DNA from: Quadrisphaera sp. | GTDB taxonomy: Bacteria; Actinomycetota; Actinomycetes; Actinomycetales; Quadrisphaeraceae | Length of the DNA: 36,033 bases | Reading direction: 5' to 3' | NCBI GenBank assembly: GCA_029257185.1 | Contig: JARICT010000071.1 | Span: 1 to 36,033, forward strand | Shown here: positions 32,377 to 36,033 of the stretch, piece after piece | How the letters are laid out: each line of letters opens with the position of its first letter | How positions within the stretch are numbered: the stretch's first letter is position 1 | Translations under genes and position numbers: made by a program | Notes under the pieces: model-generated | The model's input: the letters and a program-made list of their open reading frames with translations, nothing else | Database searches by the model: none | Told to the model about the DNA's origin: nothing

Positions 32377-34068
32377 ATGACTCCCTCCGATCTGGCCGAT
32401 GCCGTCCGCGACGTCCTCGTGGGGGCGGTGCGTGCCGGTGAGCTGAGCCTGGAGGAGTCGGCGCTCCCGGAGGGGGTGCGCGTGGAGAGGCCCCGCGACC
32501 GCGCCCACGGCGACTGGTCCACCAACGTCGCCCTCCAGCTGGCCAAGGCCGCCGGAGCCGCGCCCCGCCAGGTCGCCGAGGTCCTCGCCGCCCGGCTGCG
32601 CGAGGTGGCCGGCGTCTCCGGCGTCAGCGTCGCCGGCCCGGGCTTCCTCAACATCACCGTCGACGCGGCCTCGGCCGGCGAGCTCGCGCGCACCGTCGTC
32701 CGCGCCGGACGCGAGTACGGCCGGACCACGGTGCACGCCGGGCTCCACGTCAACCTCGAGTACGTCTCGGCGAACCCCACGGGCCCCGTGCACCTCGGGG
32801 GCGCCCGGTGGGCGGCGGTCGGCGACTCCCTCGCGCGCGTGCTCGCCGCCACGGGGGCCGACGTGACCCGGGAGTACTACTTCAACGACCACGGCGGCCA
32901 GATCGACCGTTTCGCGCGCTCGCTGCTGGCCTCCGCGCGGGGCGAGGCGACCCCGGAGGACGGCTACGCGGGGGAGTACATCGACGAGATCGCCCGCCAG
33001 GCGGTGTCCGACGCGGCGGCGGCCGGCGAACCGGACCCGAGGTCGCTCCCCGACCCAGACGCGGCCGAGGTCTTCCGGGCCCGGGGGACGGACCTCATGT
33101 TCGCCGAGATCCGCGACTCCCTGCACGACTTCGGCGTGGACTTTGACGTCTACACCCACGAGGGCACCTTCCACGACACGGGCGCCGTGGACGCCGCCGT
33201 GACGCGGCTCAAGGACTCGCGGGCCCTGTACGAGGCGGACGGCGCGTGGTGGCTGCGCTCGACCGAGTTCGGGGACGACAAGGACCGCGTGGTGCTCAAG
33301 TCGGACGGCAACCCCGCCTACATCGCCGGGGACCTCGCCTACTTCCTCGACAAGCGCGCCCGGGGGGCGGACCTCGCCGTCTACCTCCTCGGCGCTGACC
33401 ACCACGGGTACGTCGCACGGCTCAAGGCCGCTGCCGCGGCCTTCGGCGACGACCCCGCCCGCGTGGAGGTGCTCATCGGCCAGATGGTCAACCTGGTGCG
33501 GGACGGCCAGCCGCTGCGGATGAGCAAGCGAGCCGGCACCGTGGTCACGCTCGAGGACCTCGTCGACGCCGTGGGCAAGGACGCCGCCCGGTACGCCCTG
33601 GTGCGCTCGTCGATGGACTCCAGCGTCGACATCGACCTCGACCTGCTGACCCGGCGCACCAACGACAACCCGGTCTACTACGTCCAGTACGCCCACGCGA
33701 GGGCGTCGGGCGTCACGCGCAACGCGGCCTCCCTCGGTGTGGACCGCGCCCGTGAGGACGGGAGCGACGCCTTCGACCCCGGCCTGCTCGACCACCTTAC
33801 CGAGACGGCGCTGCTCGCCGCGATCGCCGACCACCCGCGCGTGGTGGCGCAGGCCGCCGAGCTGCGGGAGCCCCACCGCGTCGCGCGCTCCCTGGAGGCG
33901 CTGGCCGGCACCTATCACCGCTGGTACGACGCCCGCCGCGTCACCCCGATGGGCGACCAGGAGGTGAGCGATGTGCACCGCACGCGGCTGTGGCTCAACG
34001 AGGCGACCACGACCGTGCTGAGGAACGGGCTCGACCTCCTGGGCGTCTCCGCACCGGAGCGCATGTGA
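32377..34068 (+). CDS. argS: Arginyl-tRNA synthetase
   Basis: Class I synthetase of 563 residues charging tRNA-Arg. N-terminal additional domain with [17 protein letters not shown] (about 44-60), catalytic HIGH-type motif HLGG (H139-G142 in [13 protein letters not shown]), KMSK-type loop MSKRAGT (M382-K384), and a C-terminal anticodon-binding helical domain with [13 protein letters not shown] at its start. Length is normal. Its stop overlaps the lysA GTG by 4 bases, so argS-lysA form an operon, a pairing known in corynebacteria and other actinobacteria where it links arginine and lysine supply. Confidence 0.97.
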
Positions 34069-35492
34069 GCCACGGCCTCACCCACGAGGCCGGCGCGCTG
34101 CACGCGGGTCTGCCCGGCGCCCCGGTGTGGCTGGAGCGGCCCGACGACGTCAACGCGATGCTGGCGCACCTGTGGCCGCAGGGTGTCGCCCGCGGCGCCG
34201 ACGGGGTCGTCGTCGCCGAGGGGGTGCCCGTCGACCGCCTCGCGGCCGATCACGGGACCCCGCTGTACGTCGTCGACGAGGAGGACTTCCGCGCCAGGGC
34301 CCGCGGCTTCAAGGAGGCGTTCGACGCCGCCTTCGCCGACCTGTGCGGCGGCGTGGACGTGTACTACGCCGCGAAGGCGTTCACGTGCGGGGCCGTGGCG
34401 CGCTGGGTGGCGGCCGAGGGCCTGCGCTACGACGGCTGCACCGCCGGGGAGCTGGCGGTCGCGCTGCGCGCCGGCACCCCCGGCGACGACCTGCTCATGC
34501 ACGGCAACAACAAGTCCGTCCCCGAGATCACCAGCGCCGTGGCGTCCGGCGTGGGGCGCATCGTGCTCGACTCCGTCGACGAGATCGCGCGCGTGGCCGA
34601 CGCCGCGCGGGCGGCCGGCGTGGTGCAGGGCGTGATGCTGCGCGTGACCGTGGGCGTCGAGGCCCACACGCACTCCTACATCGCGACCGCCCACGAGGAC
34701 CAGAAGTTCGGGCTGAGCCTCGCCGGAGGAGCCGCGGAGCGAGCGGTCGCCGCCGTCCTGGAGCGGCCCGAGCTGGACCTGAGGGGGCTGCACAGCCACA
34801 TCGGGTCGCAGATCTTCGACGTCGGCGGCTTCGAGGTCGCGGCCCGCCGGCTCCTGCGCCTGCACGCCGCCGTCATCGCCGACCACGGCGTGGCCATGCC
34901 CGAGATCGACCTCGGCGGGGGGTTCGGCATCGCGTACACCACCGGGCAGCACCCGCTGCACCCCCGCGAGCTGGCGGAGGGGATGGCCGCTGTCGTCGCG
35001 TCGGCCTGCCGTGACCTGGAGATCGACGTGCCGCGGGTCTCGATCGAGCCCGGTCGTGCCGTCGCGGGCCCGTCGACGTTCACCCTCTACACCGTCGGCA
35101 CCGTGAAGCAGGTGCCGCTGGACGTCGGGATGGTGCGCCACTACGTCGCCGTGGACGGCGGGATGAGCGACAACATCCGCCCCGCCCTCTACGACGCGGA
35201 CTACTCCGCGACCCTCGCCTCGCGGACCTCGAGCGCCCCCCCGGTCCTGGCGCGCGTGGTGGGCAAGCACTGCGAGAGCGGTGACGTGGTCGTGAAGGAC
35301 GAGTACCTCCCCGCGGACACCGCACCCGGCGACCTCCTGGCGGTCCCCGGGACCGGGGCCTACGGGTACTCGATGGCGAGCCGCTACAACCACGTCCCCC
35401 GTCCGGCGGTCGTGGCGGTGCGCAGCGGCGCCAGCAGGGTGCTCGTGGCGGGTGAGACCCTCGACGACCTGCTTCGTCACGACATGGGGTGA
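34065..35492 (+). CDS. lysA: Diaminopimelate decarboxylase
   Basis: PLP enzyme of fold type III that makes L-lysine from meso-diaminopimelate, the last step of lysine synthesis. In the 475-residue product the PLP lysine is K104 ([11 protein letters not shown]). Further family motifs are [15 protein letters not shown], the glycine loop [30 protein letters not shown] with the partner-subunit Cys, and [15 protein letters not shown] 34065 overlaps the argS stop; codons further upstream are argS shadow. In several actinobacteria hom-thrC-thrB follow lysA; here two microprotein genes follow instead. Confidence 0.97.
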
Positions 35493-35621
35493 TGGAGCAT
35501 GAGCGGCGCGTGAGCCATTGGCGCGAAACGCCGCCAGGGATTATGGCGTCAGTGATCGACCTGTCACCATGAGAGCACCCCGGTCTAAACGGTCCGGCGC
35601 TCATTGAACGAAGGAGTCTTC

Positions 35622-35762
35622 ATGTCACCCTGGTTGCTGCTGATCATCATCGGCGTGATCCTCGCTATCCTCGGCTTTTCCGGGATCGCGTCCTGGCTCA
35701 TCTGGGTGGGCATCATCCTGCTCGTCGTGGGCCTCGTCCTCACCCTGGTGCGCCGCGCGTAG
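35622..35762 (+). CDS. Microprotein 1, two-helix hydrophobic (46 residues)
   Basis: ATG 35622 behind AAGGAG encodes a protein starting MSPWLLLIIIGVILAILG, then a short turn (FSGIAS), a second helix (WLIWVGIILLVVGLVLTLV) and the basic end RRA. Two membrane helices with both ends likely cytoplasmic. Clearly paralogous to the next gene. Similar tiny hydrophobic proteins are widespread in actinobacteria without known function. The 129-base upstream gap is less GC-rich than its surroundings and has a small GGCG/CGCC hairpin at about 35519-35531; no sure promoter was identified. Confidence 0.85.
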   Translation: MSPWLLLIIIGVILAILGFSGIASWLIWVGIILLVVGLVLTLVRRA

Positions 35763-35834
35763 TCGCTGGTCGACACCGCCCACCACCGTCGGCACGTCTC
35801 CCCGGCCGACACGACATCCACGAAGGAGCCCGAC

Positions 35835-35981
35835 ATGCCCCTCTGGCTGCTGCTCATCATCATCGGTGTGGTCCTCGCCCTCCTGGGCGTGTTCGTCGGC
35901 GCCGCGAAGTTCCTCATCTGGGTCGGTATCGCGATCCTCGTGATCGGCATCGTCGTCTCGCTGGTGCGCAGGGCGACGTAG
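35835..35981 (+). CDS. Microprotein 2, paralogue of microprotein 1 (48 residues)
   Basis: ATG 35835 behind AAGGAG. It starts MPLWLLLIIIGVVLALLG, has the turn FVGAAKF, a second helix (LIWVGIAILVIGIVVSLV) and ends RRAT. It aligns with microprotein 1 along its whole length apart from two extra residues. Both genes share ACGAAGGAG at the ribosome site, which points to a tandem duplication that included the translation signal. The 72-base spacer between them shows nothing else. Function unknown. Confidence 0.85.
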   Translation: MPLWLLLIIIGVVLALLGVFVGAAKFLIWVGIAILVIGIVVSLVRRAT

Positions 35982-36005: not shown

Positions 36006-36033
36006 CGCGGCTGCTCCAGGTGGAGCAGCCGCG
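36006..36033 (+). terminator. Hairpin terminator after the microproteins
   Basis: Perfect 12-base stem (36006-36017 with 36022-36033) with a four-base loop, 24 bases after the last stop. The stem could extend past the window edge. It probably ends the microprotein, and perhaps the argS-lysA, transcript. Confidence 0.65.

Follow-up and report, generated by a model that had tools for sequence, protein, structure and literature searches.

A tandem pair of predicted two-helix membrane microproteins after a lysA-like gene belongs to an unnamed actinobacterial family with a putative promoter in common with stress genes in relatives

The window analysed here, the whole stretch of 36,033 nucleotides, is the entire contig C40 of a 178-contig Quadrisphaera sp. 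genome that is 90.5% complete. Close to its last base, 36033, it carries two short open reading frames, A and B, with the following features around them.

34065 to 35492, plus strand: lysA-like decarboxylase gene, separate, 129 bp upstream of ORF A, with homologues in genomes of the same bacterial family
35562 to 35570, plus strand: TGTCACCAT, a candidate extended -10 element for A, picked by eye; it has no matching upstream element, and the full pattern described below has at least 5 mismatches
35575 to 35600, plus strand: weak predicted leader hairpin of A, 4 bp, with a CCGG/CCGG core
35608 to 35616, plus strand: ribosome-site context ACGAAGGAG of A, with AAGGAG at 35611-35616, 5 nt upstream of the ATG
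35622 to 35762, plus strand: ORF A, a predicted 46-residue two-helix membrane microprotein of the short-loop subfamily (GFSGIAS loop), MSPWLLL...LVRRA
35788 to 35810, plus strand: predicted 6-bp hairpin (GTCGGC/GCCGAC) in the leader of B, at the position of the leader hairpin in relatives
35820 to 35828, plus strand: ribosome-site context ACGAAGGAG of B, with AAGGAG at 35823-35828, 6 nt upstream of the ATG
35835 to 35981, plus strand: ORF B, a predicted 48-residue two-helix membrane microprotein of the long-loop subfamily (GVFVGAAK loop), MPLWLLL...LVRRAT
36006 to 36033, plus strand: perfect hairpin of 12 bp with a 4-nt loop, a probable terminator from its sequence and computed fold

A preliminary description of this DNA had proposed two intact, similar microprotein genes after lysA that look translated and are easily overlooked, and this holds. 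Both frames are open and intact, 72 bp lie between them, and each has a separate AAGGAG site. Their GC3 values are 0.94 and 0.96, that of the argS-like gene 0.96. The GC content of the 129 bp upstream of A is 60.5% against 75% for the window, a drop of the kind that a promoter region would show. The two proteins are 67-69% identical (69% over the aligned part, with an E-value of 2.1e-10 in a whole-genome search), so that the full-length similarity claimed for them is not due to chance; a PxWLLLIIIGV-like N-terminal start and the RRA ends are common to both, and their leaders are similar. The 12-bp hairpin described after the pair is also present. The contig ends exactly where this palindrome ends, at its final base 36033; the assembly may have broken here, and the terminator may be longer than 12 bp.

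Homologue searches place both ORFs in a wider protein family. Genome searches with A gave matches in 11 of 59 relatives, the own genome counted, of which one (G003) is weak, lies inside another reading frame and is not a member; A is similar to the member in G016 (62% identity, E 1.3e-12) and B to that in G255 (69% identity, E 2.6e-13). Searches with B found members in 44 of 297 genomes of the same actinobacterial order, and a 42-member profile run over 396 genomes of the phylum recovered two, the own genome and one of the same order. As sampled, the family is restricted to one actinobacterial order. In the named genomes 64 loci matched, 59 of them full-length members; the other five (L105, L113, L115, L117 and L118) match over only 20-31 residues and were excluded, and L116 has no in-frame start at the expected place. 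Members occur in Cellulomonas, Cellulosimicrobium, Isoptericola, Promicromonospora, Myceligenerans, Georgenia, Sanguibacter, Kineosporia, Occultella, Actinotalea and other genera; at an E-value of 1e-4 none appears in the 12 other genomes that share the window's bacterial family.

The homologue search suggested in the preliminary description thus yields homologues with a preserved frame; start codon and length of about 50 residues are preserved as well. Across 42 members the residues W4, L5, G11, G18, W28, G30 and V35 do not vary, and A and B have W4, G11, G18, W28 and G30 and resemble independent members over their full length. In 38 of 38 disjoint, codon-aligned homologue pairs, chosen at identity above 60% and dS below 1, dN is lower than dS, with a median ratio of 0.28. 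Judged from these comparisons, purifying selection acts on the family, and A and B belong to a genuine family of proteins of about 50 residues that has no name. That they are chance or non-coding ORFs, a reading to which their small size alone lends itself, is contradicted by the homologues, the kept frame and the selection, and we regard its probability as negligible.

No model of Pfam, NCBIfam or PHROGs scored above its cut-off for A or B, and titles and abstracts of the literature, with subscription papers mostly outside this coverage, held no description of the family. Among Pfam families A matches DUF1328 (PF07043; enterobacterial YtjA) best, along nearly all of its length; DUF1328 members likewise have about 50 residues and two predicted helices, as do A and B with 46 and 48 residues and the helices modelled for A. 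We rejected DUF1328 as a family name: A scores 24.8 bits, under the gathering threshold of 27, B has no match at an E-value of 1, and none of 59 relatives passes the cut-off. NCBIfam equivalogs of PRK13682 fared no better (best 23.6 bits against curated cut-offs of 52-89 bits), nor did DUF6131 (PF19626), also small hydrophobic proteins, with 11.3 bits for A, far under the cut-off of 25. Salmonella YtjA (DUF1328; 53 residues, two transmembrane segments) stands in a table of sigma-S-controlled small proteins (PMC5437024), and another paper lists DUF1328 from several phyla and gives no function there (PMC2602986).

Two further families resemble A and B in kind. The GlsB/YeaQ/YmgE proteins (PF04226) are small membrane proteins that have a promoter in common with the microprotein family in relatives, as set out below, but are longer, at about 82-93 residues; neither A nor B matches PF04226, so membership was rejected, and no PF04226 gene was found in the own genome. 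In Bifidobacterium animalis, overexpression of GlsB raised acid survival more than 22-fold (PMC12731931). DUF6458 (PF20059) proteins are likewise small membrane proteins, rich in glycine, for which two hydrophobic stretches are predicted; they differ in sequence, in their 74-76 residues and in a long polar tail, and have no match with A or B. A phage holin-like protein was also considered and rejected: a tblastn search of 50,697 phage records with B gave nothing, A and B have no match in PHROGs, and no plasmid homologues of B were matched.

AlphaFold2, run on A with a 42-row alignment, predicts helices at residues 3-19 and 22-45 (mean pLDDT 85.5, pTM 0.39), in agreement with the two helices per protein expected from the sequence. 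A Foldseek search of the PDB with the 46-residue hairpin as the only query gave no match at E-values up to 10. We infer a membrane location: on this model, A and B would be helical hairpins that span the cytoplasmic membrane and end in a basic C-terminal tail. The positive-inside rule is a guide to membrane topology, and by it the tail would probably face the cytoplasm. Packing through the conserved glycines (G11, G18, G30) and tryptophans (W4, W28) is probable.

The two ORFs fall into different parts of the family. In the tree, A groups with short-loop members and B with long-loop members (support 96/83, with a set of 4 rows for B), although a tree constrained to make A and B sisters was not rejected (AU test, p 0.15; 56 rows used from a 72-row set, with 18 rows listed for dropping). 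Tandem pairs occur at 5 of the 59 named loci (L062, L066, L076, L085 and L107), in Isoptericola and Cellulosimicrobium, and in each of the five the two members come from different tree branches. This bears on the idea that A and B are functionally identical products of a recent tandem duplication kept for dosage. Their identity, like N-terminal start, RRA ends and similar leaders would suit such an origin; the separate loop subfamilies and the unlike members united in the other tandem pairs speak against it, and we think it somewhat unlikely. Because the subfamilies are separate, yet sisterhood is not rejected, recent duplication as such is neither proved nor rejected by the sequences. Nor do the sequences show that signals were retained from a recent duplication, given the different subfamilies and a ribosome-site context that is family-wide. 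The shared ACGAAGGAG does stand before both ORFs, but it is not peculiar to the pair, as ACGAAAGG/ACGAAGG occurs upstream of the start across the family. Most relatives carry a single copy of the gene, which indicates that dosage or hetero-oligomer formation is not the basic function of the family; either role is possible for the A/B pair.

The gene's surroundings vary between lineages. The gene upstream of A, which we take by eye from its sequence to be lysA-like, has homologues 67-81% identical over the C-terminal 194 residues in all 12 genomes of the bacterial family, and at the site after it the pair is absent in all 12 (in G001 only 249 nt are readable). Five of the 12 (L274, L276, L277, L278 and L279) have a different protein of 79-80 residues at this site, in which two hydrophobic stretches are combined with a charged tail; one of these proteins, compared with Pfam, gave no match. 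On the minus strand, from 35567 to 35540, a good sigma-70-like site (GTGACA-16-CATAAT, 10/12) points from the leader of A into the 3' end of lysA, and an antisense transcript of lysA is possible from its position. In Cellulomonas and Georgenia the microprotein gene lies between presumed helicase-like and nicotinate-phosphoribosyltransferase-like genes, with clpS- and murI-like genes farther out; in Cellulosimicrobium and Isoptericola its presumed neighbours are a dihydrouridine-synthase-like and a glycyl-tRNA-synthetase-like gene of the opposite strand, all these neighbours being named from their sequences by eye, unscanned. At L021 (genome G045) the gene stands between a divergent GroEL-like gene and a short ORF with a DJ-1/PfpI gene, after which comes a cold-shock-like gene; L024 (G029) has a divergent GroEL-like neighbour too, with downstream sequence of a similar kind, and at both loci a repeat that looks CIRCE-like separates the GroEL-like and microprotein genes. 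Since the neighbours are unrelated, lineage-specific and partly on the opposite strand, the gene appears to be mostly a stand-alone transcript whose place is kept over genera.

AcrZ, KdpF and MgtS are small subunits or regulators of single membrane enzymes or transporters, and A and B could be a dedicated small subunit or regulator of this kind, in two versions or as a hetero-pair. The residues W4, G11, G18, W28, G30 and V35, invariant in 42 members, suggest specific helix contacts, and tandem pairs of unlike subfamilies recur. No conserved gene for a membrane complex accompanies the microprotein gene among its unrelated, lineage-specific neighbours, however, and the patchy presence of the family, which all 12 other genomes in the window's bacterial family lack, also argues against it; we consider this reading unlikely.

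The leaders of the relatives contain a pattern of fixed geometry. From 129 leaders, thinned to 71 through shared 8-mers, an EM search returned a 14-nt motif with a log-likelihood of 207, against 55-68 in 12 shuffled sets. Of 49 strong sites, 40 have a hexamer NANNNT whose offset from the motif is exactly 16 nt, no other offset being seen more than four times, and in 30 of the 49 TG stands three bases ahead of the hexamer. The combined pattern TCRRSRTGCSRR-N13-TGNSANNNT, at up to two mismatches, occurs in 43 of 71 leaders, a count that is partly circular as the pattern derives from the same leaders, against none for the reversed pattern and one on the opposite strand. An independent test drew on PF04226 genes of the same genomes, identified through their family and scanned over a fixed 230 nt upstream of the domain match: 8 of 20 carry the pattern at up to two mismatches, and 0 of 20 do so for the reversed pattern or the opposite strand. 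At L152, L155, L164 and L280 the start codon comes immediately behind the hexamer, which further supports the promoter reading. The exact motif TTCGACRTGCSRA was rejected as a regulon marker, since in 12 genomes it is mostly coding (F-D-V-P and similar), and the bipartite pattern was used instead.

Across 20 genomes, at up to one mismatch, the pattern has 185 matches and the reversed control 66 (summed by hand), a control which leaves codon bias uncorrected. Sixty-two loci were inspected, 30 returned by the search and 32 hand-picked for an intact -10 or by eye, and a rough heuristic puts 30 of the 62 inside open frames. The other 32 loci include four members of the microprotein family, four GlsB/YeaQ/YmgE genes, two DUF6458 genes, an anti-sigma-antagonist-like gene and two TspO-like genes, beside housekeeping or unclear cases; a Mn-catalase gene and a trehalase-like gene lie downstream of matches that the heuristic flagged as inside frames. 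Targets identified by HMM are DUF6458 (G075 and G133, behind the same pattern as the microprotein family), DJ-1/PfpI and Mn-catalase, with a STAS anti-sigma antagonist just below cut-off. Sites of the pattern ahead of the microprotein family, GlsB/YeaQ/YmgE, DUF6458 and other stress-type genes were seen in several genera (L156, L172, L175, L219, L208, L213, L221, L233, L147 and L234). In G133 the two family members found with B are joined by a third, of the MALWLVLIIAGL type, which is dispersed and lies behind the pattern (L219).

Within the bacterial family of the window, genus g2 has a variant, YCRRGATGCCG-N17-TANCGT, ahead of its GlsB genes. One variant site occurs in the own genome, L280 (G000:C3:9846-9879), 6 nt upstream of the ATG of a DJ-1/PfpI gene, which suggests a leaderless stress transcript, and G001 has one upstream of an ATPase-like gene whose HATPase match is sub-threshold. 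In the leaders of A and B the best match to the family promoter has 5 mismatches, scans of the own genome gave no match at A, and matches of the variant in the window are near chance in number, with none in the leader of A. Because the pair's own leaders lack the promoter, its stress role is drawn from family membership, and the pair would be regulated as its relatives are.

Leaders of the family also tend to fold. The best stem between -66 and -12 in 71 leaders scores 17.4 on average, against 14.1 in shuffled sequences (standard deviation of set means 0.41) and 14.4-15.3 in three control windows farther upstream; a strong stem is present in 53 of 71 leaders where 27 are expected. Among 43 promoter-bearing leaders 39 have a stem passing the score, and 36 of these 39 begin 0-15 nt past the predicted start site. 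The stems differ in sequence among relatives. A 5' stem-loop would protect a short mRNA, as established for ompA, and an mRNA that begins with a stem-loop and has a good ribosome site would allow rapid, abundant synthesis under stress.

Leader hairpins, small size, hydrophobicity and occasional tandem arrangement are also properties of type I toxins, small hydrophobic peptides repressed by an antisense RNA. The microproteins have two helices, not one, and they show long-term synteny with purifying selection over genera, gave no match in PHROGs (A and B) or in phage and plasmid records (B) and, in relatives, have a promoter in common with stress genes. A consensus promoter scan, on sequence alone, found none for an antisense RNA over A or B, and the sole minus-strand promoter-like site near the pair is the one pointing away from A into lysA. 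A toxin is very unlikely in this light.

In relatives, then, the usually isolated microprotein gene would have its promoter in common with genes for GlsB/YeaQ/YmgE, DUF6458, a STAS anti-sigma antagonist, Mn-catalase, trehalase and TspO-like proteins. From this common promoter we infer stress induction for the family, and we consider it rather probable that the family that includes A and B consists of stress-induced two-helix membrane microproteins that act on a membrane complex or in the bilayer itself. They would form homo- or hetero-oligomers in the membrane and stabilize or tune either of these, by analogy with other small stress membrane proteins. The function, unknown in the preliminary description, is thereby narrowed to a probably stress-linked one through the relatives' promoter. 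More tentatively, at a little under an even chance, the fixed-geometry promoter class (YTCRRSRTGCSRR, 13 nt, then TGNSANNNT, or TANCGT within the bacterial family of the window) may define a general stress regulon of the order with its own regulator, of which the microprotein family would be a conserved effector made from short mRNAs with a protective 5' stem-loop.

Two overlooked ORFs have thus led to a testable family that is conserved, under selection, without a Pfam or NCBIfam model and tied by its promoter to stress genes in relatives. If the regulon is true, it would offer a route to the regulator that governs general stress in Cellulomonas-type actinobacteria, and A and B would be a simple protein pair with which to probe the role of two-helix stress microproteins in the membrane.
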